Positions 1,832-36,500 of a stretch of DNA of 36,619 nt are shown one piece after another. Numbering within the stretch: the first letter of the stretch is position 1; the number at the start of each line of letters is the position of its first letter. Under the pieces are notes generated by a model. That model worked only from the letters and a program-made list of their open reading frames with translations, searched no databases and was not told the origin of the DNA. Source of the DNA: Candidatus Sumerlaeia bacterium (GTDB taxonomy: Bacteria > Sumerlaeota > Sumerlaeia > SLMS01); contig JAFIGB010000090.1 in assembly GCA_020831705.1 (NCBI GenBank), positions 1 to 36,619 of the forward strand, given 5' to 3'. A program made the position numbers and the translations under genes.

Positions 1832-2784
1832 TACGGACATCCCTCCTGGTGGGAGCGGTCGCCCTCCTCGCTGGTGGATGCGCGAAACCGCGTGTCCAAG
1901 AGGAACCGGTGGTCCCATCGACCGCGCCGGACCGCGTCAATGTCACATGGATTCATGTTCCGGGGGACGATCCGGCCACGGCCCTTCGCAATCGCCTCCG
2001 CGAGGACAAATCCTTTCATGGCCTCCTGCTGATAGACACTGGGGAGAACCTCCTTGATCCCCGGTCCGTCCGGCTAACATGGGAGGGGGAACCCATCGAC
2101 CATTTTGTCTACTACAAGTCACCGGGTAGCGCCCTTCTCTTTGTCCTCCCCGACCAGGAACCCTTTCGCCAGCAGACGGTCGGGTACCTGAAAATTCATG
2201 GAGCAATGCTGGGCGAGAATCGAACCGCGGTGATTCAGGAATTCCCCCTTCTATTCAGTGACGATGACTTCGAGGAGCAGGAAACAGCGCGGAAGAACCG
2301 TGGCGGTGAGAGAATCCAGGTGGTCAACCCGGAGCGCCGACCCATTGAGGGCGCCTGGCTTTTTGGGCAACGCCGGGAGGACCTGGTGACACGGTCTGAC
2401 GAGGGCGGCATGTTTCAACTCGACGCTCCCAGCCGCAGCAGCTCCCCCATTCATTACGCCTGGGCAGATGGTTTCTGGACCCATGCCTTTGACCCCGTCC
2501 ACGAGCGCCGGGTTACGCTTCTCCCCCGACTGGATGCCACGAATGTGGAATTGGACTTCACCCTGACGTCCCCTGACGGTGAACGTATAGACAGCGCCCT
2601 TCTACTTGTTGCCGATGACACCTACCTTCACTGGCGCGGGTCGGCAATGAACACCTCCATCCCCGCTGATCGGGATGCGAAGGTGCTCATCATGGCACCG
2701 GGGCATTCGCAAAGACTTCTGGATATCAATGAGCTGACAGACGGTAACAAAGTGGAACTGATCCGGTCGTCCGGATCCAATTAA
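1828..2784 (+). CDS. Putative lipoprotein, unknown function
   Basis: N-terminal lipobox LLAGGCAK; ATGA overlap with upstream ORF; coding-like composition. Confidence 0.7.
   Translation: MIRTSLLVGAVALLAGGCAKPRVQEEPVVPSTAPDRVNVTWIHVPGDDPATALRNRLREDKSFHGLLLIDTGENLLDPRSVRLTWEGEPIDHFVYYKSPGSALLFVLPDQEPFRQQTVGYLKIHGAMLGENRTAVIQEFPLLFSDDDFEEQETARKNRGGERIQVVNPERRPIEGAWLFGQRREDLVTRSDEGGMFQLDAPSRSSSPIHYAWADGFWTHAFDPVHERRVTLLPRLDATNVELDFTLTSPDGERIDSALLLVADDTYLHWRGSAMNTSIPADRDAKVLIMAPGHSQRLLDINELTDGNKVELIRSSGSN
2760..2777. terminator. Possible weak terminator hairpin overlapping the 3' end of the 1828..2784 CDS
   Basis: Perfect inverted repeat GATCCGG-TCGT-CCGGATC, followed by caattaacTTTTActt at a convergent gene junction with a 3-nt gap. 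Confidence 0.4.
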
Positions 2785-2787
2785 CTT

Positions 2788-4302
2788 TTACTTCTGGTCG
2801 CGCTTGGGATCGAGAGCATCGCGTATTCCCTCGCCAACGAGGTTGAAGCTCGTCACGGTGAAAAAGATGGCGAGGCCGGGGAAGATCGTCAGCCACCACA
2901 ACCCCTGTATATCATTACGCCCGTTGTTCAACAGGTCGCCCCAGCTTGCCATCGGTTGTGGAACTCCAAAACCGAGGAAGCTCAATGCGCTTTCCACGAC
3001 AATGGAACCGGCAATACCAAAGCTGACGACAACAAGGATTGGCCCGAGCCCGTTGGGCAGGATGTGCATGAAGATGATGCGCAGATGGCCGCCACCAAGA
3101 GCACGGACCGAGTGAACATAATCAAGGTCCCGGAGGCGCAGGAACTCCGCACGCTGAAGCCGGGCCACGGCTGTCCAGCCAAGAAACGCCAGGGCAAGGA
3201 TGATGTTGAGCAGGGAGGCCTGGAGGAAAGCCTGAACCGCGAGGATCAACACGAGGGCCGGAAAGCAAATCACAATCTCCATCAACCGGGATAGAAGTAT
3301 ATCCGTTATTTTGCCGAAGTAACCGGCCATGGCCCCAAGAACGATCCCAATGAAGGTGTACAGGGATACGGCAAAAATTCCGATGAGCATCGACACACGG
3401 GCGCCATACACCATCCGGGCAAGGACGTCGCGACCGTTGGTATCCGTGCCCAGCCAGTGCCAGTTCTGGTTTTCGGCGCGCTCCTCGACGGGAATCAGCC
3501 ACGTTGGAGCCTGGCGGGCATCACCCACAATGTTCTCATTTTCACCGTAGGGAACGATGGTGCGTATGACCCGGGAATTGGTTTCGCGGAATAGATCATC
3601 AGCAATCATGCGGCGGTAGGGACGTGCGTCGGATATGGTGGGATATATCTGCTTGATTGCAGCCGTTCCGCCGAGGGCCGCAAGGGGCACGAGAACCCAA
3701 TAGAAACGCCTGACGACAGGGATGCGGCGAAGTGGCCATGAGAGGACGAGTCCCCCCGCAAGAAGCAATGTATATACCTCCCAGAACCGCAGGGCACGAA
3801 ACGCGGGGAACCGGGACACCAATGCCATTTCGGCATCGTATAGCCCCTCAATTTCATCCAACAGGTCCCAAAATCCATCAGGATCCACTTCCGGATCATT
3901 CGCCATGGAACGGAACCGGGCTGCCAGATCGAGGAGGACTTCGGTTGGCTCCTCCGCGAGATAAACAGCAGCCTCGGCAACACGTCGATCAAAGCCTGCG
4001 AGCTTTTCTGGAACTTCCGACGGGGGTACGGACTCCTCGGCGAAGTCCATGATTGTTTCCTCGCAAAGCCCCAGGGAGTTGTCCAAATCCAGGGGAAAAA
4101 CCGTCTTGATGTATAGAGGCCGCGAATTGGCGAGGAGGGGACACAGAACGGCCACAAGGAGCACGAAAAGAATGGCAAGGAGGGCGGCAACAGCAAGGCG
4201 GTTGCGGGCGAAATCACGGCGGGTCTGCTCCCAGTAGGATGCCTGATCCCCCGATTGCTGGGTCTGCATGGGATTGGAAATGTTGGAATTCAGCATCGTC
4301 AT
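2788..4302 (-). CDS. Oligo/dipeptide ABC transporter permease, OppC/DppC-like, with expanded N-terminal region
   Basis: HWLGTDTNGRDVLARMVYGARVSMLIG…, DILLSRLMEIVICFPALVLILAV, VRALGGGHLRIIFMHILPN, ALSFLGFGVPQPMASWGDLL are typical of BPD_transp_1 OppC permeases. About 200 extra residues between TM1 and the core. Confidence 0.93.
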   Translation of the reverse strand: MTMLNSNISNPMQTQQSGDQASYWEQTRRDFARNRLAVAALLAILFVLLVAVLCPLLANSRPLYIKTVFPLDLDNSLGLCEETIMDFAEESVPPSEVPEKLAGFDRRVAEAAVYLAEEPTEVLLDLAARFRSMANDPEVDPDGFWDLLDEIEGLYDAEMALVSRFPAFRALRFWEVYTLLLAGGLVLSWPLRRIPVVRRFYWVLVPLAALGGTAAIKQIYPTISDARPYRRMIADDLFRETNSRVIRTIVPYGENENIVGDARQAPTWLIPVEERAENQNWHWLGTDTNGRDVLARMVYGARVSMLIGIFAVSLYTFIGIVLGAMAGYFGKITDILLSRLMEIVICFPALVLILAVQAFLQASLLNIILALAFLGWTAVARLQRAEFLRLRDLDYVHSVRALGGGHLRIIFMHILPNGLGPILVVVSFGIAGSIVVESALSFLGFGVPQPMASWGDLLNNGRNDIQGLWWLTIFPGLAIFFTVTSFNLVGEGIRDALDPKRDQK

Positions 4303-5996
4303 TGCCCCTCATACGAAATGCGGGGATCGACGACTGCGTAAAGAAGATCGGCGATGAGAATGCCGAGGAGCGTCAAAAATGCGGAAAGAAAAAGCAGGGC
4401 GTTCACAACAGGGTAATCACGCTGGACGATGGCATCAAGGGTCAGGACACCCATGCCGGGAATGGTGAAGATCGATTCGATGATGATGGCCCCGGCGATG
4501 AGTTCGGGAAGAATGCTGGCACTGATGGTAATGAGGGGGATCAGCGAATTCCTGAAGGCATGGCGGAAGACCACGCTTCGCCAGGAGACGCCCTTCGCCT
4601 TGGCGGTGCGTATATAATCCTGGGAAATCACCTCCAGCATGGCGCTGCGAACCTGGCGGGAAAGAAAGGCAAGACTCCCGTAGGTAAGACAAAGAACTGG
4701 AAGGACAAGATGCCAAAGGCGGTCGAAGAACCATTGTGAGAAGGCAACACCGTCAGCACCAAGATGAATCCCCTCGCTATTGATACCCCGGGCGGGAAAG
4801 AGATTGAGGAACGGTGGACCGGTCATCGTGAGCAACAGCAGCCCCGCCACCCAGAAACTCGGCAGGGAATAGAGGATGAACAGCATCAGCGTGACGATCT
4901 TGTCACCGGTGGAGTTCTTGTTGATTGCGGAAAGTATCCCGAGGGGGATGGCGATGATATAACTTAGAAGGACTGAAAGGAGGGAGATCACCAGCGAAAT
5001 CGGGAGGGCATCCCGAATGAGGGACATCACGGGACGTCTATATGTATAGGAGTCGCCAAAGTCGAGCCTGAATGCCTGCCCCGCCCACATCCCGAACTGG
5101 GTATTGCTGATAATATTCCAGCCATGGCGGGCAATTCCGGGGTCCTGATAGGAGATCATTTCCCGGCGCCACCAGCTTCTCCATCTGGCCATGATCTCAT
5201 CAGAGTTGGTTGCAAATTCCAGGTCATCCGCTGCAAAGCGAAATCCCGTCTGCCCCTGGAGCGCCCTGTTCACGCGGGCACGGGTCACCGGGTCGATGGC
5301 GTTGAGATTTCGCACCAGATGGGGAACGCTGTAGGCACCGATCTGGCGGACTTCCTGATAGAGTTCCTCCTCCATGTCCGTTCCCGGGGCCGTCGCCAGC
5401 CATTGCTCCACCGCATGACGCCCTGCTTCATCTGTATAGCGCTCCCTGTTTTCCTCAAACCACTGCCGATAATGGGCATGGATCTCATCACGGGACGCCC
5501 CGGCCGGCGGTGACGGCGCACCGGGCGCCAGTCGGGGCAGGAGTTCGGCAAGCATTCGACGCCGCGCATCCTCCGACACCGTCTCGACGGCCTCTCCCGC
5601 GGAGCCTGTGGGAAGGCGCTCGCCAGGGGTGCCGATCATTTCATATCGTTCCAGAACCGGTTCCAGAGCGATGGTATTGACGCGGACGAGACGGCGGCGG
5701 GCCTCGTCCTGCCAGAAGGAAGCGGTCCTGTATAGATCATCAATGGCGCGATGGGCCTGGGTGGTGCGTGAATCAAAGCGCAGGTTCAGCACCATCGGCC
5801 TGTCGAGGCCAAGGTTCCGGCGGTTGCGTTCCACCAGGTCCTGGTAGGCCACATTGCTGGTTCCCCCACCGCCGGGCTGGATGCTCATGGTTGCGGGATC
5901 ACCGGGAGTCAACCGGGTGACGACAAAGGTAATGACCGTGATCCCAAAGAGGGTCACAAAGAGCAGGAAAATCCGCTTGATGATATATTCAAACAC
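4299..5996 (-). CDS. Oligo/dipeptide ABC transporter permease, OppB/DppB-like, with large periplasmic insertion
   Basis: MFEYIIKRIFLLFVTLFGITVITFVVTRLTPGDP N-terminus and C-terminal core (LDFGDSYTYRRPVMSLI…, YIRTAKAKGVSWRSVVFRHAFRNSLIPLIT, IFTIPGMGVLTLDAI). ATGA overlap with the OppC-like gene. Confidence 0.93.
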   Translation of the reverse strand: MFEYIIKRIFLLFVTLFGITVITFVVTRLTPGDPATMSIQPGGGGTSNVAYQDLVERNRRNLGLDRPMVLNLRFDSRTTQAHRAIDDLYRTASFWQDEARRRLVRVNTIALEPVLERYEMIGTPGERLPTGSAGEAVETVSEDARRRMLAELLPRLAPGAPSPPAGASRDEIHAHYRQWFEENRERYTDEAGRHAVEQWLATAPGTDMEEELYQEVRQIGAYSVPHLVRNLNAIDPVTRARVNRALQGQTGFRFAADDLEFATNSDEIMARWRSWWRREMISYQDPGIARHGWNIISNTQFGMWAGQAFRLDFGDSYTYRRPVMSLIRDALPISLVISLLSVLLSYIIAIPLGILSAINKNSTGDKIVTLMLFILYSLPSFWVAGLLLLTMTGPPFLNLFPARGINSEGIHLGADGVAFSQWFFDRLWHLVLPVLCLTYGSLAFLSRQVRSAMLEVISQDYIRTAKAKGVSWRSVVFRHAFRNSLIPLITISASILPELIAGAIIIESIFTIPGMGVLTLDAIVQRDYPVVNALLFLSAFLTLLGILIADLLYAVVDPRISYEGQ

Positions 5997-6021: not shown

Positions 6022-8139
6022 TCAGTTGCCGCGATCGGCCGGGTTGGCCCACCACCACTCGCTGAAGTTCATTGGGTATCCACTGGGGTACAGCTTCACT
6101 CCCCGAAGGTTGCGGTTCAGAAAATATGTCTGCTCAAACCCGAATAGAAAGCTATACGGTTGTTCATCGGCGATGATCTGGTGAATTTCCCGGGAGATGG
6201 CCCAGCGCTCCTCCTGGTCCATCGTGCGGCGCAGGCGGACGGTCAACTCGTCCACACGGTCATTGTGGAAGGACACGGTGTTGTTCCCCCCAGATTCACT
6301 TTGGGAGCTGTGCCATGTCACAAAGGGATCGGGGTCCATGCTGGCCATCCATGCAAGGCGGATCGCATCAAAGTTTTTCTCCCGGGCCTTGCGCAGGAAG
6401 ATGGCCCATTCCGACCTGCTGATGTTAACGCGGATACCCGCCTGCTCAAGGGACTCCTTGATAATGTCTGCAATCTTCTGATGGTAATCCCGGGCATTGT
6501 GAATGGCGTATTCAAACTCCAACTGGACCATGCGGCCGTTGATTTCCTTCTCGCGAATGCCGTCCCCGGTGCGGTCACGCCACCCGGCCCGCCCAAGAAG
6601 CCGAATCGCAGCGCGGGGATCGTAGGGAATCGGTTCCACATCGTGGTTGTAGGCGGGGCTGTTGTAGTAGAAGGGGCCATCAACGGGAAAGGCGAGACCG
6701 TAGTGGACATTCTCGGCGATTTCCTCGCGGGGAATCAACATGGCCAGTGCCCGGCGGACATCCTTGTCCTGGAAGATTTCCCTCTCCAGGTTCCAGCCAA
6801 TATAGGTGTATAGAAACCCGGTGCTTCTTGCGCGGACGACCCGCTCCAGGAATTCCGCCGTGTTGGTTTCCCGCTGGGCCCAGGTGGAAGGCTCGACTTC
6901 AAGGTCGGCATCGACACGCCCGGCGACCAGGTCACGAATGACCGTGGATGCCTCCCTGTATAGCACCCAGCTGATCTCATCCATCCAGGGCTGGCCCTTT
7001 TTCCAGCGTGGGATTGCCCCATCGGGCAGATCATTTTTCCAGTAATCGGGATTGCGCTCGATGGTGAGCGACTCCCCGCGGCGGTGCTCCCGGAAGCGAT
7101 ACGGGCCTGTATAGACAGGGTTGTCCTTGAACGGATGGTCATTGAAGGCCTCGCCGAAGGCAACCTCGTCACCGCCATATTGGTCGGGATTAAAGACGGA
7201 CCTGGGCAGGAAGTACGCACCGCCATTCTGGGCAAGCTCACCACCAACAAGCGCCAATGCCTCGTAGTAGGGCTGGCGGTAATGAAACCGAACCCGCGAG
7301 CCGTCCTCGCTTGCCTCCACCATCTCCACTTCCGAAAAGAGGCTCCGGTAGGGCTGGGCATCGACGGTGGGATTCATGATCGTCTCCACGCTGAAGACAA
7401 CATCATGCCCGGTGAAGGGTTCCCCGTTGTGCCACTTGATGTTTGGCCGGATGAAAAATTCGAACCCGCAGTTGATCTTGGCGAAGGGAAGTGTCTCTTC
7501 GGTACTTCCATAAGTGACGGTGTATGTGGCGAGATCCTCCGTCTTGATCGTCACCGGTTCTTCGCGTTCGGAGGCATAAGCGGTATCGATGGTTACCGTA
7601 TGGGTCTGGCGGGTTACCCGACCCTCAAAACGGTCACCGCCCCAATTCTCTGTGAGAACAACATAATCCTCGCCAACTTCGGCAAGATCGAACTTGTTCC
7701 ACGTTCCCTGCCAGGCTCCCGGGACGAACGTGAAGGAATCTCCTTCAGGGTCACCGAGGATGCGGCCTTCCTGAACCTCCCCGCCGTCCAACTGGACGAG
7801 GTCGAACTCGCGCCAGTGCCAGGCCATCTCGGCGTAAAACTCCATCGTTTCCGCATCACGGTTCACCAACGAGTCGGTCATGTGATTCAGCACCACACGG
7901 GAAGGGGCTGCGGTGGTGGTGATGGCATTGAGATGATCGAACTCCGCGGCGTTGCGCAGACGAAGCCTTCCTCCCCGCCGGGGTGTTGCCGACTCCCTGA
8001 TTTCATCCGTGACATCGGGATTGAAGGTATCGGCGACGACCGGTTCGAGAACCGGGGATGCTGCCGGGGCTGGATGGGGAGCCACGATGGCAAGTGCAAG
8101 AATCAGAGTGGAAAGGGTGATGTCTTTTCTGGGAATCAT
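6022..8139 (-). CDS. Extracellular solute-binding protein family 5 (OppA/DppA-like)
   Basis: Signal-peptide-like N-terminus; SBP_bac_5 motifs (FFIRPNIKWHNGEPFTGHDVVFSVE, YTGPYRFREHRRGESLTIERNPDYWK, DVRRALAMLIPREEIAENV). First gene of an operon with the two permeases. Confidence 0.92.
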   Translation of the reverse strand: MIPRKDITLSTLILALAIVAPHPAPAASPVLEPVVADTFNPDVTDEIRESATPRRGGRLRLRNAAEFDHLNAITTTAAPSRVVLNHMTDSLVNRDAETMEFYAEMAWHWREFDLVQLDGGEVQEGRILGDPEGDSFTFVPGAWQGTWNKFDLAEVGEDYVVLTENWGGDRFEGRVTRQTHTVTIDTAYASEREEPVTIKTEDLATYTVTYGSTEETLPFAKINCGFEFFIRPNIKWHNGEPFTGHDVVFSVETIMNPTVDAQPYRSLFSEVEMVEASEDGSRVRFHYRQPYYEALALVGGELAQNGGAYFLPRSVFNPDQYGGDEVAFGEAFNDHPFKDNPVYTGPYRFREHRRGESLTIERNPDYWKNDLPDGAIPRWKKGQPWMDEISWVLYREASTVIRDLVAGRVDADLEVEPSTWAQRETNTAEFLERVVRARSTGFLYTYIGWNLEREIFQDKDVRRALAMLIPREEIAENVHYGLAFPVDGPFYYNSPAYNHDVEPIPYDPRAAIRLLGRAGWRDRTGDGIREKEINGRMVQLEFEYAIHNARDYHQKIADIIKESLEQAGIRVNISRSEWAIFLRKAREKNFDAIRLAWMASMDPDPFVTWHSSQSESGGNNTVSFHNDRVDELTVRLRRTMDQEERWAISREIHQIIADEQPYSFLFGFEQTYFLNRNLRGVKLYPSGYPMNFSEWWWANPADRGN

Positions 8140-9186: not shown

Positions 9187-10740
9187 GTGACAAAAAAAAG
9201 AGCCCTTCTCTCCGTAAGTGACAAATCAGGACTGGTGGACTTCGCCAGATTCCTTGTCGGCAAAGGTGTTCAGCTCCTTTCAACAGGCGGTACCGCACGC
9301 CATCTTCGCGACGCGGGCCTTGAGGTGACTGATGTTTCCGAAGTCACCGGATTCCCCGAGATCCTTGACGGGCGGGTCAAGACCCTCCACCCCGCTATTC
9401 ATGGGGGATTGCTGGCGCGCCGCGATGTCCCCGAGCACCTCGCCACGGCGAAGGAACACGGCATCGGGATGATTGATTTTGTGATCGTGAATCTTTACCC
9501 CTTCGCCGAAACGGCAGCCGACACCTCCAAATCCTTCCAGGAAGTGATCGAGCAAATCGACATTGGCGGCCCCTCGATGTTGCGGTCGGCCGCGAAAAAC
9601 CATGCCGCCGTTACCGTGGTTTGCGATCCCACGGATTACCCCCGTGTCACCAGTGAAATGGAAGCCAAAGGCGAGACCTCCGAGGCCCTGCGCCGTGGAT
9701 TGGCCGCCAAGGTCTTCACGCATACCTCCGGCTACGACGCCATGATCGCCAATTATCTCGGGGGAAAAGAGGAGGAGAATGCCGGATGGCCCGGTGTTTA
9801 CAATCTGTCCCTCCCCCTCGCCCAGGCGATGCGTTACGGCGAGAACCCCCACCAGGCGGCTGCATTCTACCGTGATCCGTCGGTAACGGAAACATCCATC
9901 GCCGGCGCCCGGCAACTTCATGGCAAGGAATTGAGCTACAACAACATCCTCGACGCCGAGGGAGCGCTGGAGATGGTGCGCGATTTTGTCGACCCCGAAA
10001 TGGCTGCGGCGGTGATCGTCAAACACAGCAACCCCTGCGGCATCGCGATTTCCCACTCCCTGGCAAAGGCCTACACCAAGGCACGGGCTACCGACCCCGA
10101 TTCCGCCTTCGGAGGCATTGTTGCCCTTTCAAAAACCGTGGATGGGGAAACAGCGAAAATCATTGCCGAGACTTTCAACGAAATCATCATCGCCCCCGGC
10201 TTCGATGCCGAGGCCCTCGAAATCCTCACGGCGAAGAAGAACCTGCGCCTTCTGGAAACAGGTGAATTCACCCCGAAACAACAGATCAAGCTCGTTCGCG
10301 GGGTCGTTGGTGGCATGCTGGTTACCGACCGTGACCTTGGGACCATTGACGAGGATGGCCTGAAGGTGGTCTCGCGCAAGAAGCCCGATGAGGAGGACAT
10401 TCCCGGTCTGCTGTTTGCCTGGCGTTGTGTGAAGTGGGTGAAGTCCAATGCCATTGTCTATACATCCTCGAGCGCAACGATTGGAATTGGAGCCGGGCAG
10501 ATGTCGCGGGTGGACTCCGCGAACTTCGGTGCCAGGAAGGCCAAGTCGACATTGAAGGGCTCGATCATGGCCAGCGACGCCTTCTTCCCGTTCCGCGATT
10601 GCGTCGACATTGCCGCCAAACATGACGTTCGGGCGATCATCCAGCCGGGCGGATCCGTCCGCGATGATGAAGTCATCCATGCTGCCGACGAGCTGGGCAT
10701 CATTATGGTCTTTACCGGTAACAGGCATTTCCGGCATTAA
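9187..10740 (+). CDS. purH: Bifunctional AICAR formyltransferase/IMP cyclohydrolase
   Basis: KKRALLSVSDKSGLVDFARFLVGKGVQLLSTGGTARHLRDAG…, GGRVKTLHPAIHGGLLARR-type motif, RYGENPHQAAAFY, KHSNPCGIA, FPFRDCVDIAAKHDVRAIIQPGGSVRDDEVI. GTG start at 9187. Confidence 0.97.
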   Translation: MTKKRALLSVSDKSGLVDFARFLVGKGVQLLSTGGTARHLRDAGLEVTDVSEVTGFPEILDGRVKTLHPAIHGGLLARRDVPEHLATAKEHGIGMIDFVIVNLYPFAETAADTSKSFQEVIEQIDIGGPSMLRSAAKNHAAVTVVCDPTDYPRVTSEMEAKGETSEALRRGLAAKVFTHTSGYDAMIANYLGGKEEENAGWPGVYNLSLPLAQAMRYGENPHQAAAFYRDPSVTETSIAGARQLHGKELSYNNILDAEGALEMVRDFVDPEMAAAVIVKHSNPCGIAISHSLAKAYTKARATDPDSAFGGIVALSKTVDGETAKIIAETFNEIIIAPGFDAEALEILTAKKNLRLLETGEFTPKQQIKLVRGVVGGMLVTDRDLGTIDEDGLKVVSRKKPDEEDIPGLLFAWRCVKWVKSNAIVYTSSSATIGIGAGQMSRVDSANFGARKAKSTLKGSIMASDAFFPFRDCVDIAAKHDVRAIIQPGGSVRDDEVIHAADELGIIMVFTGNRHFRH

Positions 10741-17341: not shown

Positions 17342-18178
17342 ATGATCAATATCGGGACAAAATCAAAACTCCAGCTTCCCCCCCTGCCCACCGACCGTGA
17401 AATCACCCTTTCCATCGTGATCCCTGTCTATAACGAGGCCTCCACCATTGCGGAGTTGCTTCGCTATGTTGCCGATGCACCGGCAGCGGGCCTGCGCAAG
17501 GAGATGATCATCGTCAATGACTGCTCCACCGACGGCACCCGCGAGGCCCTGGAAGAGGCCCTTCCCGCATTGGAAAAGGAGTACCCGCGCATCGGCTTCC
17601 GGGCGTTCCACCACCCCGTGAACCGGGGGAAGGGGGCGGCCCTGCGCACGGGATTCTCCCATGTGGCCGGGGACATCGTCATCATTCAGGACGCAGACCA
17701 CGAATACGACCCCAACGAGTACGACAAGCTCCTCCAACCGATCCTTGCCGGGCGCGCCGATGCCTGCTTTGGATCGCGCTTTCTCGGGGGCGACACCCAC
17801 CGAGTCCTCTATTTTTATCATTACCTCGGGAATCGATTCCTGACCCTTTTCAGCAACGTCTTTACCGACCTGAACCTGACGGACATGGAGACCTGCTACA
17901 AGATGTTCCGCGCCGAGGTGCTCGACAACATCACGCTGGTGGAGGACCGATTTGGATTCGAACCGGAATTCACCCAGAAGCTCGCCCGCCTCAACATTCG
18001 TATATACGAAACAGGGATTTCCTATTACGGCAGGAGCTACGACGAGGGGAAGAAGATCGGCTGGAAGGATGGGGTGCGGGCGATCTACTGCATTCTCAAG
18101 TACGGCCTGACAAACAAGCAGGGCCGCCCGGTGCGCGGAAAAAAACGGCGCAGGGCCCGGATTTCCAACGACGGCTGA
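17342..18178 (+). CDS. Glycosyltransferase family 2 (dolichyl-phosphate mannose synthase-like)
   Basis: LSIVIPVYNEASTIAELL, IIVNDCSTDGT, NRGKGAALRTGF, IQDADHEYDPNEY, TDMETCYKMFR, YYGRSYDEGKKIGWKDG. Confidence 0.94.
   Translation: MINIGTKSKLQLPPLPTDREITLSIVIPVYNEASTIAELLRYVADAPAAGLRKEMIIVNDCSTDGTREALEEALPALEKEYPRIGFRAFHHPVNRGKGAALRTGFSHVAGDIVIIQDADHEYDPNEYDKLLQPILAGRADACFGSRFLGGDTHRVLYFYHYLGNRFLTLFSNVFTDLNLTDMETCYKMFRAEVLDNITLVEDRFGFEPEFTQKLARLNIRIYETGISYYGRSYDEGKKIGWKDGVRAIYCILKYGLTNKQGRPVRGKKRRRARISNDG
17997..18010. repeat. 14-bp perfect palindrome TTCGTATATACGAA
   Basis: Self-complementary; contains GTATATAC; lies within the GT2 gene. Confidence 0.7.
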
Positions 18179-18187: not shown

Positions 18188-20647
18188 CTACCATCGCGTG
18201 GCGGACACGGTCCATCCTCCCCGGCGATGTATATCCACCCGGATGGTCCCATCGAGATCGGTGCGGCGAACTTCCGCGCCAACGGCGTCCAATCGGTCCA
18301 GAACCTCCTGATGCGGATGCCCGTAGGTATTGTTCCTCCCACAACTGATAAGTGCCAGGCTGGGTTGCACGTGTTCCAGAAAGAGCATGGTGGAGGATCC
18401 CCGCGATCCATGATGGGCCGCCAGGGCGATGTCACTTCGAAGGGCCTCCCCGTATTCGTCGACCATGTCGCGCTCGGCAGCGGACTCCGCATCCCCGGTC
18501 AGCAGGATCGTGGTGCCTCCGAAGGTTGTCTGTACAACGATGGAGGCGTCGTTTCTTGACAAGTCCCCCTCAATGAAGGGACCGGTGGGATGAAGAACGT
18601 CGAAGACGAGGCTGTTCCCGAGGGGAATGCGGGCGCCACGCCGTATGGTTGCCACCGGTTGATCCAACTGGGCGACAACATCACCGAGGGACTCAAAGAT
18701 ACGGGTTCCCGCAAGCCCTCCGTTCACAAGTAATTTATGCGTGGGTATTTCCCGCAGGACCGAGGGGAGCCCCGCGATGTGGTCCGCATCAGCGTGGGTG
18801 GCGATCACCCAGTCCAACTCCTTCACCCCCCGCGAGCGCAACATGTCGGGCAGCAGCCACGACGTTCCCGCCGGGCCGCCGTCTATCAGGGCGAATCTTC
18901 CATCGGGGGAGCGCACCAGAATGGCGTCGCCCTGGCCGACATCGAGAACCCAGATTCGCATCGATCCCGGAAGTTGGCCCCAAAGGGGAATCCAGATAAA
19001 GACCAACAGCAATACCAGCCCCCCCGGCATGAAGGCCCACGCCGACCGCCGTGGCTGGCTGAAATGATGATGGCGGTTCCATTCGGAGAACCAGACCGTC
19101 CCATAAAAGAGGAAAACAAGAAACAGGGGCCATGGTGGCGTGGAAAGGGCCGCGAAGGGAAGGCCCGCCAGGACATCCGCTCCCCACGCCAGAAGCTCCA
19201 GGGGAGCGACGAGGACCTTCATCGCCGCGGTTGCTCCCCATGGAAAAGCAAGGCCGAGAAGGAAGAGGAGGAACGTCGCCTTGATGCAAATGGCCGCGAG
19301 GGAAAGGAGAAAAAGATTCGCAATGGGGGCGACGAGGGAGACCTCGCCAAAGCGTCCCGCAAGGACGGGTGACAGCAGCAATTGAATCACGGCACTGATG
19401 GCCAAAATCTGGGTGGAGCGAATGACAATCTCCCCCCGCCACCCCCAACCAACACGTTTCCCCAGCGACTTGCGCAATTCGTTGAGCCAGGGAGCGGAAA
19501 GAAAGATGGCCACCATGCAAAGGAAGGTCATCTGAAAGTCGACCTGCCAAAGGGAACGGGGCCAAAGAAGGAGCAACCCCATGCCCGCCGCACCAAGGGC
19601 TCCGAGGGGATCCAGGGGGCGGCGCAAGACCTCGCGAAAGTCGAAAAGAAACAAGAGAAGGGCCGCCCGCAGGACGCTCGCCTTCCAACCCACAAGGGTG
19701 GCGAACATGATTAAAAACAGGGACAGCAATATAAGACGCCACCAAACCGGCACCCCCATCAACCGCATTGCGCCAAGAAACAACCCACCCACAAGGGCCG
19801 TGTGTATTCCGGAAACGGCAAAGATATGCATCAAGCCCGCCCGGCGAAATGACACGCGCTGATCGGCGGTCAGGTTGCCCGTCCTCCCAAGGGTCATTGC
19901 GGACAACAAGCCGGCCTGTTGATTTGGAAGTGCGAAGAACATCCAGGCCTCGGCCCTGTTACCCAGATTCCAGGAAAACCGGGCGAGGCGACCGGGCGAC
20001 AGAACGGAATGGTCCTTCGCCATCGATTGTATATCCCGCGCACGAAGCAGCAGTACCGCACCACGGTCGGAATACCACCCCCACTGCTCGCTCCCGATGC
20101 CACCCCGCGGGAGCTCCAGCACCTCCCCCACCGCCCGGATTTCATCGCCGGGAATCAGGGGTCGCAACTCCCTGTCATGGGTTGCATCCCCGGCAACACG
20201 CACGATCACCGGAGCGGGAATCGTTGCCGTCATGCCCCGTGTATCCAATTGGGATCCGGCTGCGAGGGTGAACGTCCAGTGGGTCGCCGACCGGGCAGGC
20301 ATGCGCGCGAGGGTTCCGCGGATCTCCCCGAGAGGAGTCCCCCCGTCAGCGAGATAAGTCACGATCCCCGCAGCGACACCATCACGGGCAATCAGGCGGG
20401 AAGTTTGCCACCCACCAACCGCAGCTACAAGAACACAAAAGACCATCGGGAAGATGGGGGAACGGACCCTGAACAGGAGCATCAATGCCGTGGAAAGGGC
20501 AATCAGCGCGAGCCATACAACCTCGGGCACGCCGAGGGTTTTTGACATCAGATGCCCGGCAACAAGGGCCAACAACCCCACCATCCCCGGCCTTGCCAGG
20601 GAGACATGCACGGCTTTCACATCCAATGACTTCCTCTGCTCGCTCAT
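18188..20647 (-). CDS. comEC: ComEC/Rec2 family DNA-uptake channel protein
   Basis: N-terminal membrane/OB region, Competence domain (HIFAVSGIHTALVGGLFL), C-terminal metallo-β-lactamase-like domain (LDVGQGDAILVRSPDGRFALIDGG, THADADHIAGLPSVL, LTGDAES, AAHHGSRGSS). Confidence 0.95.
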   Translation of the reverse strand: MSEQRKSLDVKAVHVSLARPGMVGLLALVAGHLMSKTLGVPEVVWLALIALSTALMLLFRVRSPIFPMVFCVLVAAVGGWQTSRLIARDGVAAGIVTYLADGGTPLGEIRGTLARMPARSATHWTFTLAAGSQLDTRGMTATIPAPVIVRVAGDATHDRELRPLIPGDEIRAVGEVLELPRGGIGSEQWGWYSDRGAVLLLRARDIQSMAKDHSVLSPGRLARFSWNLGNRAEAWMFFALPNQQAGLLSAMTLGRTGNLTADQRVSFRRAGLMHIFAVSGIHTALVGGLFLGAMRLMGVPVWWRLILLSLFLIMFATLVGWKASVLRAALLLFLFDFREVLRRPLDPLGALGAAGMGLLLLWPRSLWQVDFQMTFLCMVAIFLSAPWLNELRKSLGKRVGWGWRGEIVIRSTQILAISAVIQLLLSPVLAGRFGEVSLVAPIANLFLLSLAAICIKATFLLFLLGLAFPWGATAAMKVLVAPLELLAWGADVLAGLPFAALSTPPWPLFLVFLFYGTVWFSEWNRHHHFSQPRRSAWAFMPGGLVLLLVFIWIPLWGQLPGSMRIWVLDVGQGDAILVRSPDGRFALIDGGPAGTSWLLPDMLRSRGVKELDWVIATHADADHIAGLPSVLREIPTHKLLVNGGLAGTRIFESLGDVVAQLDQPVATIRRGARIPLGNSLVFDVLHPTGPFIEGDLSRNDASIVVQTTFGGTTILLTGDAESAAERDMVDEYGEALRSDIALAAHHGSRGSSTMLFLEHVQPSLALISCGRNNTYGHPHQEVLDRLDAVGAEVRRTDLDGTIRVDIHRRGGWTVSATRW

Positions 20648-23598: not shown

Positions 23599-24816
23599 AT
23601 GCGCATCCTCCTGCTACTGGACACATTCGAGGATCATCTTTCCGGGAAAATGCTTCACCTGCTTTGTCAGCGGTGGGCGCCGATTCGCGAGCTTCGCCTT
23701 TCCGTTCTCTCGCTTGGACCGGATGGTCCCCTGCGGGAGCGGTTCCGGGCGCTGGGCGTGCGCACGGCCATGGTGGATGCATCGGGACCGGTGGCCATCC
23801 GCAGGGAGGGAAAAAAGGAGCTGTTCAGCAAGCTCCGGCCGGATCTCCTTCACTCCCATTGTTCCTGGCCCGCCATGGGCGCCCGTCTTTACCATTCCGG
23901 GAATCAGTGGGTTCCGTACATCGAAAGCGTCCATGATCTCCAACCACCGCCTCGTGACATGATGAACAAGGTGGTTCAATTCGGGCTTGAGCGCCACACC
24001 CGGAAATACATCTCCGCCGTGACCGCCTCCTGCAGGCACGTCCGCACCCACCTTAAAAATGCCGGGATTGAGCCGGGGAAGATCAAGCTCATCCCCATGG
24101 GCGTGGACGGGGTCCAGTGCTTCCCCCTTTCCCCACAAAGCCTTTCCCGATATAGAAAACTATTCGGCGTTCACGATGACGAGCCGCTGGTGGTGACTGC
24201 CGGGCAGATTGAGAAGGGTCACCTGAGCCTGCTGGATGCCTGGCCCGCGGTGCGTGAAAAGGTTCCCGACGCAAGGCTGTTTTTCATCGGCGATGGACCC
24301 GCGCGGGAGGAATTGGAGGCACGATTGCGGGAATACAACCACGACAATTCCCTACGGAAGATCGGGCCACTGGACGAGATCGGCCCGAAGGTTTACGGCG
24401 CCGCGGACGTGGTGGTCCACCCCGGTGGGGAGAACATCCTTCCCCACGAAATCGCCCAGGCCGGTGCCGCACGGGCCGCCGTCGTGGCGTGGGACCATGG
24501 CGCCAATGTCGAGTATATACGCCACGACGTCACCGGGAAGCTGGTCAGGCCGGGGAACATCGAATCCCTCGCTGGAACCATTGTCGAGCTCCTCAACAAC
24601 CGGGAAAAACGGGAGGAACTTGGCAACGAGGCGCGGGAGTACATCCTGGAGGAGCTGGAGGTCAGCCAGACGGCGCGTCTATACATTGACCTTTGGAGGG
24701 ACCTGGCGCCGGACTCCCTTTGGGACCAGACAAACAATCTCACCGCCGGCGAGGTGGATCCCTTCCCGCTGGAGTTCAACCAGCTGAAGGATCCCCAGCT
24801 TCATCGCGACGGATGA
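23599..24816 (+). CDS. Glycosyltransferase, GT4/group 1 family
   Basis: MRILLLLDTFEDHLSGKMLHLL…, LLHSHCSWPAMGARLY, KIKLIPMGVDGVQC, LFFIGDGPAREELEARL, C-terminal GT-B pattern (EYIRHDVTGKLVRPGNIESLAGTIVELLNN). Confidence 0.88.
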   Translation: MRILLLLDTFEDHLSGKMLHLLCQRWAPIRELRLSVLSLGPDGPLRERFRALGVRTAMVDASGPVAIRREGKKELFSKLRPDLLHSHCSWPAMGARLYHSGNQWVPYIESVHDLQPPPRDMMNKVVQFGLERHTRKYISAVTASCRHVRTHLKNAGIEPGKIKLIPMGVDGVQCFPLSPQSLSRYRKLFGVHDDEPLVVTAGQIEKGHLSLLDAWPAVREKVPDARLFFIGDGPAREELEARLREYNHDNSLRKIGPLDEIGPKVYGAADVVVHPGGENILPHEIAQAGAARAAVVAWDHGANVEYIRHDVTGKLVRPGNIESLAGTIVELLNNREKREELGNEAREYILEELEVSQTARLYIDLWRDLAPDSLWDQTNNLTAGEVDPFPLEFNQLKDPQLHRDG

Positions 24817-26079: not shown

Positions 26080-28404
26080 TTATTCAGGAATGGTGAGCGA
26101 GTAAACCGCATCAAGGCGGATCATTCCGTCCCCCTTCGCGGAGCGATTCGGCTCCACGAGGTAGACTTTGTCGAGGGTGTAGGGGGGCATTGGCGGTTGG
26201 TCGACGATGCCGATGGAGGTGAGCCGCAAAAAATTCGTCCACACATGTCGCCACTCCCCCTTCCAGGAGACCCCTTCGCCGGGTGTGGTAAAATCGATGA
26301 CAAAGCGGTTTTCATTGGCATCAAGGAGTTCCCCGCGCAACCAGTGGCCACTGCCATCGCCCCAGACACGCACCCCAACCCCCAGGGCATCCTCGGGCAG
26401 CTGGACACGAACGGGAACATCGACGCGGGAAGCCCCTCCCGTACGGTGCATGGAATAATCCAGTGCCCACGACGCATTACCTTCCTGATAAATCTCCGTG
26501 TCGTGGGAGACGCGCGTGGCCGTCGTATTCATATTGATGAGGCTGAGAAATTCGGTGGAGTCGCCGTCCGGTGGGGTGTCGAATGCCTTCACCAGTTTCT
26601 TGGACACCGTGTCGACTGCCACGTTTGCCGTAATTGTGACATCACCGTGTTGGGCCTGGATTTTTCCCACACCGGGGGCAAGCGCCTGAATGATATTCCG
26701 GGAGGCATCGTGTTCGAGGAAATCGGGGACGTCCATCCCGGATGGCTGGAAGGCAGCGTAGAAGGGGGTTCCTTCCGCGTGGGTGGCCTCGACCCGAAAT
26801 GGCGCGGCATCCCCGCTTTGGAGAAGTAGATTCCGTGGTTGGAAGTCGACTGATTGCGCATCCGCAACACGGATGATGGCCCGCCCATGGATATTTGTGC
26901 CGACCAACCGGACATTGACGACCTTGTCGCCGGGGGTTTCTGCGCGAAAGTCCAGGGAGTCGGTGAAGGCATGCTGGGCGTATTCCTCCTCGCCAACGCG
27001 GTGTACAACCTGCCACTGGGGATTCCAGGGAACCATCTCCCCCGAGGCATCATGGGCTACCAGGTTGAGCTTGAGACCGCTCCCTGTAGGGAGAAAGACA
27101 TCACGGGGAAGGATCGTCAGGGAATTGGGGCGACCAAGGGGCGCATTCCGCATGAGGAACAACCCGGTGCTCACGGTTCGTGCCCCGGATGTATCGGAGG
27201 GAAAATTGGCAAGCTGGCCGTTGACCACCATGGTGGTGGAGCCCCCGCCATCACAGTTCAGGGCGTCTATACAACCGAGGGAGATCATGTATTCCGCCAG
27301 GTCGAAGAGATCAATGCCGACGGATCGCCCGGGCTGCCTGCCATCGACGGTGACCATGACAATCTCGCCTCCGGGGCGGATGCCGATGGCAGTCCGCGGA
27401 TGGCTGGTGGTGAGGAAATCCGTGCGGATGGCGGCCCGTTCGTCAGCACCGTCGACATGGGGTTTGCCGTTCTTGACGATCTGGGGAAGTCCCCCGGTGA
27501 CACCCACAATCCTGCCCGGGAGGTTGCCGAGGCGTGCATCGAGGGTGACCGACCTGCCGGTGGCAACCTGCGGGGGGAGGGGAAGCTCGGTATAGACAAC
27601 GGCCTCGTCCCTTCGGATTGGCCTGTCAGGAACCTTGTCCACGTCCACAATGACACCCTGGACGGGTACATTGGGAAGCCACTCGGGGCGATCAAGGCGA
27701 ACGACAAAGCTGCGAAATCCGTCAGGGACCGGAGGTGGATGACCAACGGGCCAGGTGTTCACAATGGTCCGCGTTTCATCCTTCTGGTAATTCACCTCGT
27801 CTATACGAAGGCGGGTGCCATTTTCCAGGACGATGTTGGCCGTCCACTGGGGTGGCCCGATGAAGGTGTTCATGTTCTCGTCGAAACCGAAGACCGCCCG
27901 CTGGCGCGTGCCGGTAACGTCCATCCATGGCGCCTTCCAGATCATCCCCTCATCGACGAACATGTTCACGGGGACACTCATCCCCATCCAGAAGTCGGCG
28001 TTGATGCCGACAAGGGGGCGCTCGCCGAGGGTGGCAAGTCGGGCCGCCATTGCGGGGATCGACTCACGGCCGTCTATACGACGTTGTCCCTTCTCGGCTT
28101 CAAGGCGCAAGTCCGGGCGGGAAAGCTCGGCAATGACGGTGTTGATTGTCAGCGGGCCGGTGGAGGTCGATTCAAACCGGTGAACGACACCGGGCGCCAG
28201 TTGTTGTTCGAAGTGGAAGTCCGTCCCGTCAACATGACCGACGGAGGCGGGGAACGGTGGCAACTCGGAATAGACAAGGGGGGTGCGGCGGGATTCAAGC
28301 TCCTCGGCCTTCCTGGCGTTGGTCGCGCAGGCCCCCACGAGCAACAAGGCAATGATCCCACTGCCAAGTGCCTTCCCTCCAATTCGATAAACCATGGACA
28401 TCAT
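26080..28404 (-). CDS. Phosphodiester glycosidase (NAGPA-domain) lipoprotein with Ig-like and C-terminal β-sandwich domains
   Basis: Lipobox LLLVGACATN; NAGPA features (GINADFW, HPRTAIGIRPGGEIVMVTVDGRQPGRSVGIDLFDLAEYMISLGCIDALNCDGGGSTTMVVNGQLANFPSD). β-rich C-terminal half. Confidence 0.88.
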   Translation of the reverse strand: MMSMVYRIGGKALGSGIIALLLVGACATNARKAEELESRRTPLVYSELPPFPASVGHVDGTDFHFEQQLAPGVVHRFESTSTGPLTINTVIAELSRPDLRLEAEKGQRRIDGRESIPAMAARLATLGERPLVGINADFWMGMSVPVNMFVDEGMIWKAPWMDVTGTRQRAVFGFDENMNTFIGPPQWTANIVLENGTRLRIDEVNYQKDETRTIVNTWPVGHPPPVPDGFRSFVVRLDRPEWLPNVPVQGVIVDVDKVPDRPIRRDEAVVYTELPLPPQVATGRSVTLDARLGNLPGRIVGVTGGLPQIVKNGKPHVDGADERAAIRTDFLTTSHPRTAIGIRPGGEIVMVTVDGRQPGRSVGIDLFDLAEYMISLGCIDALNCDGGGSTTMVVNGQLANFPSDTSGARTVSTGLFLMRNAPLGRPNSLTILPRDVFLPTGSGLKLNLVAHDASGEMVPWNPQWQVVHRVGEEEYAQHAFTDSLDFRAETPGDKVVNVRLVGTNIHGRAIIRVADAQSVDFQPRNLLLQSGDAAPFRVEATHAEGTPFYAAFQPSGMDVPDFLEHDASRNIIQALAPGVGKIQAQHGDVTITANVAVDTVSKKLVKAFDTPPDGDSTEFLSLINMNTTATRVSHDTEIYQEGNASWALDYSMHRTGGASRVDVPVRVQLPEDALGVGVRVWGDGSGHWLRGELLDANENRFVIDFTTPGEGVSWKGEWRHVWTNFLRLTSIGIVDQPPMPPYTLDKVYLVEPNRSAKGDGMIRLDAVYSLTIPE
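27265..28079. repeat. Cluster of four copies of octamer GTCTATAC/GTATAGAC
   Basis: Copies at 27265-27272 (+), 27590-27597 (−), 27799-27806 (+), 28072-28079 (+), all inside the phosphodiester glycosidase gene. Confidence 0.75.
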
Positions 28405-30502: not shown

Positions 30503-32398
30503 ATGCCATTGGAAACGCCCGTGGATCCAAGCGGGAAACCCATAACTGATGTACCCAATGCCACCATTCGGTTTGCCGGCGATTCCGGCGACGGAATGCA
30601 GCTGACAGGGGTGCAATTCACCAATAGCTCGGCCATTTTCGGAAACGACGTGTCCACCATGCCGGATTTCCCGGCGGAAATCAGGGCGCCAGCCGGCACG
30701 GTCTACGGCGTTTCAGGCTTCCAGCTCCAATTCAGCTCCTCGGATATTTACACCCCCGGCGACGAGGTCGACACCCTGGTGGCGATGAACCCCGCCGCCC
30801 TGAAGGTCAATCTCAGTGACCTGCGCCCCGGTGGCATCATCATCGCCAACGAGGACGGCTTCACCCCCCAGAACCTCAAGCTGGCCGGTTATGAGGAGAA
30901 CCCCCTGACCGACGGCTCCCTCGATAAATACCGCGTGCATCCAATCCCCATGACACAGGCCTCGCTCCGAGCAGTCGAGGAGCTTGGTGTCATTGGCAAG
31001 GATGCCGCCCGCTGCAAGAACTTCTTCGCCCTCGGCGTTGTCTGCTGGCTATACGGACGTCCCCTGACGCCGATCCTGACCTTCATCCAGAACAAGTTCG
31101 CCAAGAACGAGACTATCCGCGAGGCCAACACCAAAGTCCTCAAGGCAGGCTTCTATCTCGGCGAAACACAGGAACTCTTCGATCGCAGCTACCGTGTTCC
31201 CAAGGCAAAGCTCCCGCCGGGCACCTACCGGGAGATCCACGGCAATGAAGCCATTGCCCTTGGTCTTGTCGCTGCCTCCGAACTTTCCAACAAGTCGCTC
31301 TTTTACGGAAGTTACCCCATCACCCCGGCCAGTGACATTCTTCACGAGTTGGCCAAGCACAAGGCCTTCGGCGTGCAGACCTTCCAGGCCGAGGATGAAA
31401 TTGCCGCCATCTGCGCCGCCCTTGGCGCTTCCTTCGGTGGTGCCATCGGCATGACCGCTTCCGCAGGCCCGGGCATCGCCCTGAAATCGGAAGCCATGGG
31501 CCTCGCCGTCATGATGGAACTTCCCCTGATCGTGGTGAACGTCCAGCGCGGCGGCCCCTCAACGGGTCTTCCCACCAAGGTGGAACAGGCCGACCTGATG
31601 CAGGTCATGTATGGACGCAACGGCGAATGCCCCATCCCGGTGCTCGCTCCCCGTTCAGCGGCCGACTGCTTTGACATGGCCATCATGGCCACCCGCATTG
31701 CCCTTCGCTACATGACACCGGTGGTCATCCTCAGCGATGGCTTCATTGCCAACAGCGCCGAGCCCTGGCTGATCCCGTCGGTGAGCGACATGGAACCGAT
31801 CAAGGTGGAACACCCCCAGGAGCCGAACGGTGAGGATGACGAGTTCCTCCCCTACCTTCGCGACGAGAACCTTTCCCGCCCCTGGGCGCTTCCCGGCACC
31901 CCCAAGCTGATGCACCGTCTTGGTGGTCTCGAAAAGAAGGATGTCACCGGGGCAGTCAATTACGAGCCTGCCAACCACCAGAAGATGGTGAACATGCGCC
32001 AGGCCAAGGTGAACAAAATCGCCGAGTTCGTCCCCGAGCAGACCATCTATAACGAAACCGATGAGGCCGCCGATGTCCTGCTCATTGGATGGGGCGGAAC
32101 ATACGGTGCCATCCGCGAGGCCAACCGCCTCCTCATTGAGATGGGGCACAAGGTTTCCAACATCCACATTCGGTATATACACCCCTTCCCGCGGAACCTC
32201 GGCGAGATTCTGGAACGCTACCGTGGCAAGCACATCATCGTTCCCGAGCTGAACAACGGCCAGTTGCTCCGTCTCATCCGCGCGGAATATCTGGTAAATG
32301 CCCGTGGCCTGAACAAGGTCCAGGGCAAGCCATTCATGGTGAGTGAAATCGTTGAATTCGTCGACAACCTTCTGACCAAGGAGAAGAAGAACGCATGA
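30503..32398 (+). CDS. korA: 2-oxoacid:ferredoxin oxidoreductase, fused gamma-alpha subunit (KorA-like)
   Basis: NATIRFAGDSGDGMQLTGVQFTNSSA…PAEIRAPAGTVYGVSGFQLQFSS (gamma domain) fused to alpha (GNEAIALGLVAASELSNKSLFYGSYPITPASDILHELAKHKAFGVQTFQAEDEIAAICAALGASFGGAIGMTASAGPG). Start at 30503 preceded by AAAGGAG. Confidence 0.94.
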   Translation: MPLETPVDPSGKPITDVPNATIRFAGDSGDGMQLTGVQFTNSSAIFGNDVSTMPDFPAEIRAPAGTVYGVSGFQLQFSSSDIYTPGDEVDTLVAMNPAALKVNLSDLRPGGIIIANEDGFTPQNLKLAGYEENPLTDGSLDKYRVHPIPMTQASLRAVEELGVIGKDAARCKNFFALGVVCWLYGRPLTPILTFIQNKFAKNETIREANTKVLKAGFYLGETQELFDRSYRVPKAKLPPGTYREIHGNEAIALGLVAASELSNKSLFYGSYPITPASDILHELAKHKAFGVQTFQAEDEIAAICAALGASFGGAIGMTASAGPGIALKSEAMGLAVMMELPLIVVNVQRGGPSTGLPTKVEQADLMQVMYGRNGECPIPVLAPRSAADCFDMAIMATRIALRYMTPVVILSDGFIANSAEPWLIPSVSDMEPIKVEHPQEPNGEDDEFLPYLRDENLSRPWALPGTPKLMHRLGGLEKKDVTGAVNYEPANHQKMVNMRQAKVNKIAEFVPEQTIYNETDEAADVLLIGWGGTYGAIREANRLLIEMGHKVSNIHIRYIHPFPRNLGEILERYRGKHIIVPELNNGQLLRLIRAEYLVNARGLNKVQGKPFMVSEIVEFVDNLLTKEKKNA

Positions 32399-33441: not shown

Positions 33442-33463
33442 ACCCGCCAACCTCCCAACCCCC

Positions 33464-33471
33464 GTATAGAC
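33464..33471 (-). repeat. Intergenic copy of the recurrent octamer GTCTATAC
   Basis: GTATAGAC on +, directly abutting the terminator hairpin at 33474. Confidence 0.7.
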
Positions 33472-33473
33472 AA

Positions 33474-33517: not shown

Positions 33518-33552
33518 TCCTCCCAAACTGCGGGGGCCGTTCCGAAAACCGG

Positions 33553-36500
33553 TTACAGGTTCTCGGGAATCAGCGTGAGAATGTTTTCCCGGTCGGCACC
33601 AAGGACCGTCCAGTCGGAATCAAACCGGATGCCGCCGTTGGTTGTAAAGACGGCGCGTGACTCGCCGGTGGGAAGGTTGTCCACATAGAAAAGGGAGTCC
33701 GAGACATCCATTTCCAGCGTCCACGGCCCGGGACCGTTGTCCTCCTGACGACCGACGGGGCGGTGCTCAAGCCTCATCGTCCCCGGGGAAAACTCGTCGC
33801 CATTGGCGTCCACAATGACGATGCCCACGTTGACCAGCTCAAGATCAATGTCTATACGCTGTTCGTAGGGGCGTTCCTCCACGGTGAATGTCTCCCCGGT
33901 GATCGCCCGGGTGCTGCTTCCCGTCACCGGGATTTCCACCGAGTAGACACCGGGGGCGAGGAAATGCTCGAACTGGCCGTTGCCGACCGTCAGGGTGGTG
34001 CGGCTGGCCTGGGCGCCACGGAGGGGAGCAAGTTCCAGCTGGAAGAACCGGGAGCGGTCGCGCTGGCCATTGCGTCGCAGCGTTCCCTCGACCTGGATCA
34101 ATCCCTCAAGGCTGAAGTCCACTTCCTGGCTTTCCATGTTAATGGTGACGTTTTGCCGCTCGATGACTGCGTTGGTTCCTGACAGCAGCGTCACCGCGTA
34201 GCGGCCCGGCGAGACGTTGGCGAAGACGTACTCCCCACTGGAGTCCGTCGTTTCCGTTGGATCACGGAACCCGGTGCCGAGGCGAACGGTCATGCCGCTG
34301 GCAGGCCGACCATCCGGACCCGTCACGACGCCATGAACCCTTGCGCCCTGGTGCATTCTGATCTCCACCAATTCGGGGCGCTGGCCTGATTCGAGGACGA
34401 CTTCCACCTCGTCGGACATGACATAATCCTCCAGTTCGGCCTCAAATCGAAGGGTACCGGGCGTTGTATAGGCGAATTCAAAATTCCCCCGGGTGTCCGA
34501 CGTGACGGTCCTGCGATTTCCACCCTCAACCCGGCGCCACTGGTTGCCACGGGGGCGGGCTTCATCCTGAACCGTCATCCGAACTTCGACGCCTTCCAGA
34601 CCACGTCCATCGGCATCAACGACCTGACCACGAAGGGTCACGGAGTCGCCAATTTCCACCCGTACCTCCGCGGTCTCACCGCCATCGGTGACTTCGAAAT
34701 TTTCGAACCCGTAGGCACCGGTACGTTCACCACTTTCTGAAAGTGGATAGACATGGACGCGGTATGTACCCGGGGAAAGGGTCTCTGTCACGGCGGCGGT
34801 CTGGTTGATGACACGCCCCTCCACGTTCGTCCTCCGGTCGCGACCACGGGTGCTTGAATCAAGAGCGAATTGATACTCAAAGCTGGTGACCTGATTGCCA
34901 CCCGGTTCCGATGCGGTCAGGGAGACCGAGGCCCGGGCGCGCATTTCAACGGTTACCGGGGAATCCTCGACATTGATGTTCCCCATATTGACATCGTCAT
35001 AACCGGGATGTCTCGCCTCCAGAGTGAAGGTCCGTGCATCCTCATCCATATCGTTGAAGGTAAATCGTCCCTGCGCGTCGCTTTCCACGGAGGGAGCATC
35101 TGGCGCCCGCCAGCGGCCAACGCGGCGTGAAAGAAGGGCCCCCTCAATGGGATTGCCTTCCTCGTCCACCACCACACCTTCAAAAAGGGCTGCTGCCAGT
35201 AATTCAAAGTCCTGACCTTCCAGATCCTCGCCCTCTGAAAGATTGATCATGCGGGGATCGGGAGACACCATCGCCATGTCTTCCGGCGGGGAGACCGCGA
35301 GGAAACCGCGGGTGCCGTATATTTCCTCGATGATGTAGGTGCCATCGGCGCCCGTGGTCGCGGAATCCGCCGTGCCACGCCGTCCTGCTGCCTGGCGAAG
35401 GGTCACTTCTGCGCCGTAAACGGGCTCACCATCAGGCCCGGACACGGTACCTGAAACGGAGGAGAAACCGGAAAGCGTCAATTCGACAGGTTCGAGGGGA
35501 CCTTCGGCGGCGACCTCGTATTGGCTGGAATGATATCCGTCGGTGCTGCGTGCGAGGAGGAAACCGCGGGCCTCGGGAGGAACGCTGATCTTGAAGCGGC
35601 CATCAGGGCCGGTCTGTGACTGGGCATTGGCGATGTCGGGATCTGGCATGAGTTGAAGCCCCCGGGCACGACCAATTTCCGGGCGGAAGTCCACGCCCAC
35701 ACCCGCCACGGGAGTCACCCCGTCTGCAAGGAAGACGGTGCCTTCGAGAAGCAGTGTCGGAGTCACGGTGATGCGCACTTCCTCGCCGGATTGGAGGCGG
35801 TCGATGCGCACGTTATGTGTCTGCCATTCCGCTGCATCGTGGCCGTAATGGGAAGGAAGTTTGTAGTGAAGACCGGGAACGCGGAAGACTCCACCGCGGA
35901 CTTGTGAATACGTTTCCAGGGTGAAGCGACCATCAAAGCCGGTCACAATGGAATCCACGGGAGCATTTCCCGCGGGAGCGCCAAAAGAACCGTCAGGCTT
36001 GGCAATCTGGACGCCCTGGATGGGCTCCTCCGTTGCGGCATCAACGACAACTCCGTTGATCGTCAACGCAGGGTCAAACTTGAGTGTCACCGTCTTTGAT
36101 TCGCCAACATTTAGCAGGGTGCTGTTTCCGGTGGACTGGATGGCGGGGTTGTCGCTGGTTGCCACCAGGGTCTGCCATCCGGCACGGACGGCCGGGAATT
36201 CGAAGTAGCCCTCCTCATCGGTGCGGACGAACTGGGTATCCAAGTCGGGAAATGGGGGCTGGGTCCGCCAGCCGGGGCCACCCGGACGGAAGATGGTTTC
36301 CACCGCGGCGTTGTTCATGGGGCGACCTTGAGCGTCCAGAACACGCCCGCGAACGCTTGCCTCCCCCTTGCGAAGGACAATCTTCGATTCACTTTCCGAT
36401 GGCGCTGCAACTTCAAGGACATTGGGGAGGTACTCGCGGTGCTTGGCGTGAATCATGACCAGCTTGCCCCGGGGTGCGGCCTCAAATTCAAAGATTCCGT

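Follow-up and report, generated by a model that had tools for sequence, protein, structure and literature searches.

The octamer GTCTATAC lies at the centre of a longer, family-specific recognition word, an element at the level of DNA that is symmetric between the two strands and independent of reading frame. The word has accumulated in one bacterial family, in the aligned cases by substitution, and has done so strongly enough to change amino acids. The reading that we tentatively favour is that of an uptake-signal-like motif, which may have been spread by drive coupled to transformation. The whole stretch of DNA analysed here (the window) is one contig of 36,619 bases from a draft genome, G000, of 4.65 Mb in 502 contigs (84.6% complete). 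By KorA the window falls on a long branch close to Phycisphaerae/Planctomycetota, which suggests a deep relative of the Phycisphaerae.

A sequence-only reading of the window had listed ten copies of the octamer, all of which we found at the coordinates and on the strands that it gave (Table 1), compared with 0.05 expected from dinucleotide shuffles. Its zero-order estimate of about 0.6 copies was arithmetically correct (the second-order Markov value is 0.08), and the GC content that it assumed, about 60%, was measured at 59.3%. A pyrimidine precedes the octamer in 10 of 10 copies, as claimed, and a purine, claimed for most, follows it in 9 of 10. The several codon phases described were likewise present, with five copies read as R/C-I-D, three as V-Y-T and one as R-L-Y, and one copy intergenic; the host proteins are unrelated to one another. 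The terminator said to adjoin the intergenic copy at 33464 was seen by eye on the minus strand (AAGCCCGGC...GCCGGGCTTTT, then GTCTATAC); a consensus scan did not list it. Partial forms were also frequent, YGTCTAT occurring 19 times in the window versus 2.5 expected. Elsewhere in the window, the protein encoded at 33553-36612(-), 1019 aa long, contains five or more carboxypeptidase-regulatory-like domains and weakly matches the anammox S-layer family, and the oligopeptide permease genes at 2788-5996(-) are unusually long, with permease domains from about residues 300-320 of 504-565 aa.

Table 1. Copies of the word, its variants and a competence gene in the window
Feature	Position	Strand	Context
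GTCTATAC copy	2585..2592	-	antisense phase 1 (R-I-D), gene 1909-2784(+)
GTCTATAC copy	7109..7116	-	sense phase 0 (V-Y-T), SBP_bac_5 solute-binding protein 6022-8139(-)
GTCTATAC copy	10456..10463	+	sense phase 0 (V-Y-T), PurH 9187-10740(+)
GTCTATAC copy	24677..24684	+	sense phase 1 (R-L-Y), glycosyltransferase 23599-24816(+)
GTCTATAC copy	27265..27272	+	antisense phase 1 (C-I-D), NAGPA-domain gene 26080-28401(-)
GTCTATAC copy	27590..27597	-	sense phase 0 (V-Y-T), NAGPA-domain gene 26080-28401(-)
GTCTATAC copy	27799..27806	+	antisense phase 1 (R-I-D), NAGPA-domain gene 26080-28401(-)
GTCTATAC copy	28072..28079	+	antisense phase 1 (R-I-D), NAGPA-domain gene 26080-28401(-)
GTCTATAC copy	33464..33471	-	intergenic; immediately 3' of terminator-like hairpin and T run, minus strand
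GTCTATAC copy	33850..33857	+	antisense phase 1 (R-I-D), carboxypeptidase-regulatory-like repeat protein 33553-36612(-)
GTATATAC palindromic motif variant	3770..3777	.	4 in window vs 0 in shuffles
GTATATAC variant	18000..18007	.	window count
GTATATAC variant	24513..24520	.	window count
GTATATAC variant	32173..32180	.	window count
TGTCTAT partial motif form	2032..2038	-	YGTCTAT count
Other partial forms without full octamer	5035+, 17425+, 18178-, 18880+, 22072+, 22522+, 28270-, 34747-		YGTCTAT count
ComEC, DNA-channel protein of natural transformation	18188..20584	-	Pfam Competence and Lactamase_B

Counting the word genome-wide and against Markov models, and checking its strand symmetry, had been proposed by the sequence-only reading, and all three bore out an excess on both strands. 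The G000 draft holds 969 perfect copies, or 1 per 4.8 kb, divided 490:479 between the strands, while the reversed word, used as a control, occurs 33 times (20 + 13). In 225 kb of unbiased G000 contigs plus the window, 50 copies were found versus 0.7 expected under a second-order and 3.4 under a third-order model. The most enriched octamers there were GTCTATAC and its overlapping neighbours, and likewise in samples of G003 and G006. Each of the three main genomes was sampled over 217-454 kb, and G001, G002 and G005 less extensively. Literature searches found no paper describing the octamer.

The wider word is YGTCTATACR, with a looser form, YGTMTAKACR, that has an asymmetric centre. The variant GTATATAC was enriched in the G000 sample (18 sites versus 1.5 expected), as were the softer forms ATCTATAC, GTCTATAA/T and YGTCTATC, and GTCTAT occurred 330 times in 454 kb of G000, about once per 1.4 kb. 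The excess of near-variants was graded, and most of it involved position 3 or the outer positions; in the octamer variant counts, most core transitions (for example, GTTTATAC) showed no enrichment, and neither did the palindrome GTCTAGAC (1 site versus 0.35). Fold enrichment in G000 was about 78 for the mixed C/A form, compared with 12 for A/A and 3 for C/C (the last from a single site), so a model of two independent half-sites fails; the centre of the word is asymmetric although its ends mirror each other (YGT..ACR). Flank preferences varied by genus, being T...A in G003, C...G in G006 and GTCTATC in G002, and resemble dialects. In the G002 samples (L196-L202), YGTCTATC was the commoner form (27 GTCTATC versus 14 GTCTATA), possibly a dialect of its own.

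Within genes, which were called in the samples by a simple script, the octamer occurred on both strands and in all five phases that avoid the TAG stop of GTATAGAC, with its position along genes uniform; it also occurred between genes. Four copies lie at gene ends, where the TAG of GTATAGAC is able to supply the stop (L111:909, L120:8643, L109:15974 and L157:14322). The commonest phase, V-Y-T, is built of common codons, as would suit an artefact of codon-pair, amino-acid or composition bias or a repeated protein domain. We consider this explanation refuted, with next to no probability remaining to it. Synonymous shuffling within genes left 9.4 of the 107 coding copies in the G000 sample (79 fell to 9.5 in G003, and 50 to 2.9 in G006). 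The phases that require the rare codons CTA, ATA or AGA (the first two had looked rare to the sequence-only reading as well) were used 23 to 373 times as often as codon usage predicts given the amino acids, and 30-40% of [RGSC]-L-Y strings carried the rare CTA within the motif. The contexts are unrelated proteins, and intergenic copies were enriched too (13 versus about 0.24 expected in intergenic stretches of up to 500 bp). Furthermore, V-Y-T had the highest z score among common tripeptides (106 versus 31 expected across three genomes), whereas the remaining VYX tripeptides were close to expectation. Since 98 of the 106 cases were spelled GTC-TAT-AC, the V-Y-T excess indicates that a DNA-level force altered proteins. 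The sequence-only reading had argued for a DNA-level signal rather than codon-pair bias, and the shuffles, the enrichment in all phases and on both strands, the intergenic excess and the amino-acid replacement strongly support it, with uptake, methylation and protein binding all candidate roles. None of the checks that it proposed and we ran (genome-wide count, Markov models, synonymous shuffles and related genomes) spoke against the observation.

Comparison with related genomes, also suggested at the outset, placed the excess in one family. Six of its seven members carried between 247 and 1078 copies (G003, 1078; G000, 969; G006, 930; G002, 477; G005, 274; G001, 247), while the seventh, G004, showed no excess (26 copies versus 39 for the control). 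The five genomes of the sister family and 27 others of the class differed from the control by small amounts at most, and none of 22 + 19 genomes outside the class had a comparable excess. The PurH sequences of the six positive genomes cluster in a tree (94/98 support), with the G004 copy as a long branch outside them; on this single gene, the simplest reading would be that the six inherited the word from one gain in their common ancestor. Four of the positive genomes showed, in the sampled loci, strong, lineage-specific avoidance of palindromic hexamers, which looks like restriction avoidance: CATATG in the G000 sample (8 versus 211), GGATCC and CAGCTG in that of G006 (14 versus 257 and 6 versus 142), CGTACG in G003 (22 versus 159) and GGATCC in G005 (6 versus 61). 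In the sister-family genome G008, L216-L222 contained about 46 copies of a CRISPR-repeat-like repeat with GGATTGAAAC.

Intergenic density was broadly like that of coding DNA: G000 and G003 had similar or lower values, and any increase in G006 was not significant. A seemingly strong intergenic depletion mostly disappeared when contigs lacking sites, together with long uncovered stretches, were left out. Enrichment at terminators, which the sequence-only reading had proposed to examine, was not general, intergenic copies being few and inverted pairs less than 30 bp apart numbering 2 in 257 sites. The octamer showed no polarity relative to GC skew (P value = 0.07-0.37, with skew on contigs as the proxy); the looser GTCTAT was weakly biased towards the C-rich strand in G003 (P value = 0.012). 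Sites were not evenly spaced (CV, 1.0-1.5) and in G003 were clumped, some 20-kb contigs holding 12-16 copies and six contigs none. Five of these six (L132, L133, L140, L145 and L147, of 12-20 kb) were tetranucleotide outliers, and L148 was compositionally typical; foreign or misbinned DNA would explain the site-free contigs.

At the few orthologous places that could be aligned, sites differed from their homologues by substitution at one to several positions, and insertion of a mobile octamer is ruled out for these cases. Of seven copies aligned between the same-genus genomes G006 and G002, three were conserved, compared with 11 of 98 control octamers (Fisher test, P value = 0.048), a difference that is no more than suggestive. 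The PurH octamer at window position 10456 was also present in G002, G003, G006 and the sister-family genome G011. We dropped the interpretation of this site as a clean A-to-T replacement, because VYT or the octamer stands there too in G010 and G011, sister genomes classed as motif-free.

The force that we favour, tentatively, would be a molecular drive acting through natural transformation: an uptake step that binds DNA would prefer fragments with the word, recombination would install them, and near-matches would be drawn over time to the full word, as for the DNA uptake sequence (DUS) of the Neisseriaceae and the uptake signal sequence (USS) of the Pasteurellaceae. Drive of this kind, by biased uptake, is consistent with a word that is found family-wide and has dialects by lineage, a graded series of near-matches and copies inside genes. 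The DUS are themselves family-level words (PMC3630211), reported without polarity, and the drive model predicts a graded excess of near-matches (PMC1939737), as observed here. The excess over the reversed word, the strand balance, the restriction to six of seven family members with the sister family and the rest of the class negative, the rank of V-Y-T, the motif-borne CTA, the density of GTCTAT-type sites, the genus-specific flanks and the substitutions at aligned sites all point the same way. The compositionally outlying site-free contigs of G003 would also be expected if recently acquired DNA lacks the word. ComEC was found in every genome compared (one copy in 12 of 12), but positive and negative genomes alike carry it, so it does not discriminate. 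Caution about uptake comes from the lack of an intergenic or terminator excess and from the fact that no receptor was found; the quasi-palindromic outer half-sites are also unlike known uptake words. Known DUS and USS favour non-coding DNA and are frequently arranged as inverted pairs in terminators (PMC3630211, PMC1939737). The word resembles the DUS as a family-restricted, asymmetric word of 8-12 bp with about a thousand or more copies on both strands, but differs in sequence, in its unrelated lineage and in lacking both a clear intergenic excess and inverted-pair terminators. With the USS it shares frame-independent build-up in coding DNA and the absence of orientation bias; its sequence is different, its perfect copies are sparser, and the USS are over-represented in non-coding DNA.

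Three other explanations invoke different proteins. A solitary DNA methyltransferase could recognize the word, its copies being made and kept either by mismatch repair that methylation directs or by selection for the mark, as has been proposed for the HIP1 octamer of cyanobacteria. HIP1 is similar in size, density, restriction to a lineage and degree of excess, and its variants, like those seen here, are reported mostly at the first and last bases (PMC4390886); methyltransferase genes occur in most of these genomes. We nevertheless find this account doubtful. The cyanobacterial HIPs (HIP1 and the alternate HIPs) are true palindromes, rich in GC, whose cognate methyltransferases are known, whereas GTCTATAC is not a GC-rich perfect palindrome and has an AT-rich middle; precursors in the alignments frequently show several differences rather than one repairable mismatch; and none of three methyltransferase families tested in the incomplete drafts was common to all six positives. 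PF00145, and with it a shared m5C methyltransferase, was not found in the drafts of G001, G002, G003 and G005, PF02384 in those of G001 and G005, or PF01555 in G005, which is 75% complete. It seems unlikely that the word is a site where a protein of chromosome architecture, segregation or recombination (nucleoid-associated, Chi-like or KOPS-like) binds inside the cell, with selection maintaining dense chromosomal coverage. The Chi octamer of E. coli has a comparable copy number, about a thousand, and the quasi-symmetric YGT..ACR ends (suggestive of protein contacts), the intragenic placement and the conservation between G006 and G002 would suit such a protein. However, the word is not G-rich, and its orientation does not track GC skew, a proxy for replication direction, for which reason Chi and KOPS were set aside; spacing is uneven, contigs of one genome range from 0 to 16 sites per 20 kb, and the very many amino-acid replacements would need substantial selection at each site. 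Finally, the motif GTMTAKAC matches the published operator consensus of GntR/HutC-type transcription regulators, NyGTMTAKACNy (PMC4494728), almost identically, and GTATATAC is enriched as well. Operators of such a regulator are nonetheless a very improbable source of about a thousand mostly intragenic sites spread evenly along genes. The UTRA domain that defines HutC regulators was found once in G003 and not in G000, G001, G002, G005 or G006, and a symmetric dimer with independent half-sites predicts that the mixed C/A enrichment squared should approximate the product of A/A and C/C, contrary to the values and the asymmetric centre observed.

To our knowledge, the established classes of genome-wide iterated words are few: uptake sequences, HIP1 and Chi. 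A further, new class, in a family unrelated to those and with both one member and the sister family lacking the motif, offers a natural comparison for how such a word starts and spreads. V-Y-T as the top tripeptide shows with unusual clarity a drive at the level of DNA prevailing over protein sequence. It is not far short of an even chance that the word is an independently evolved uptake signal outside the Neisseriaceae and Pasteurellaceae, with genus-level dialects, in an uncultured family near the Planctomycetota or, failing that, an undescribed kind of iterated, protein-rewriting signal. If it is an uptake signal, it would mean sequence-selective natural transformation in a lineage for which we found no paper reporting it.
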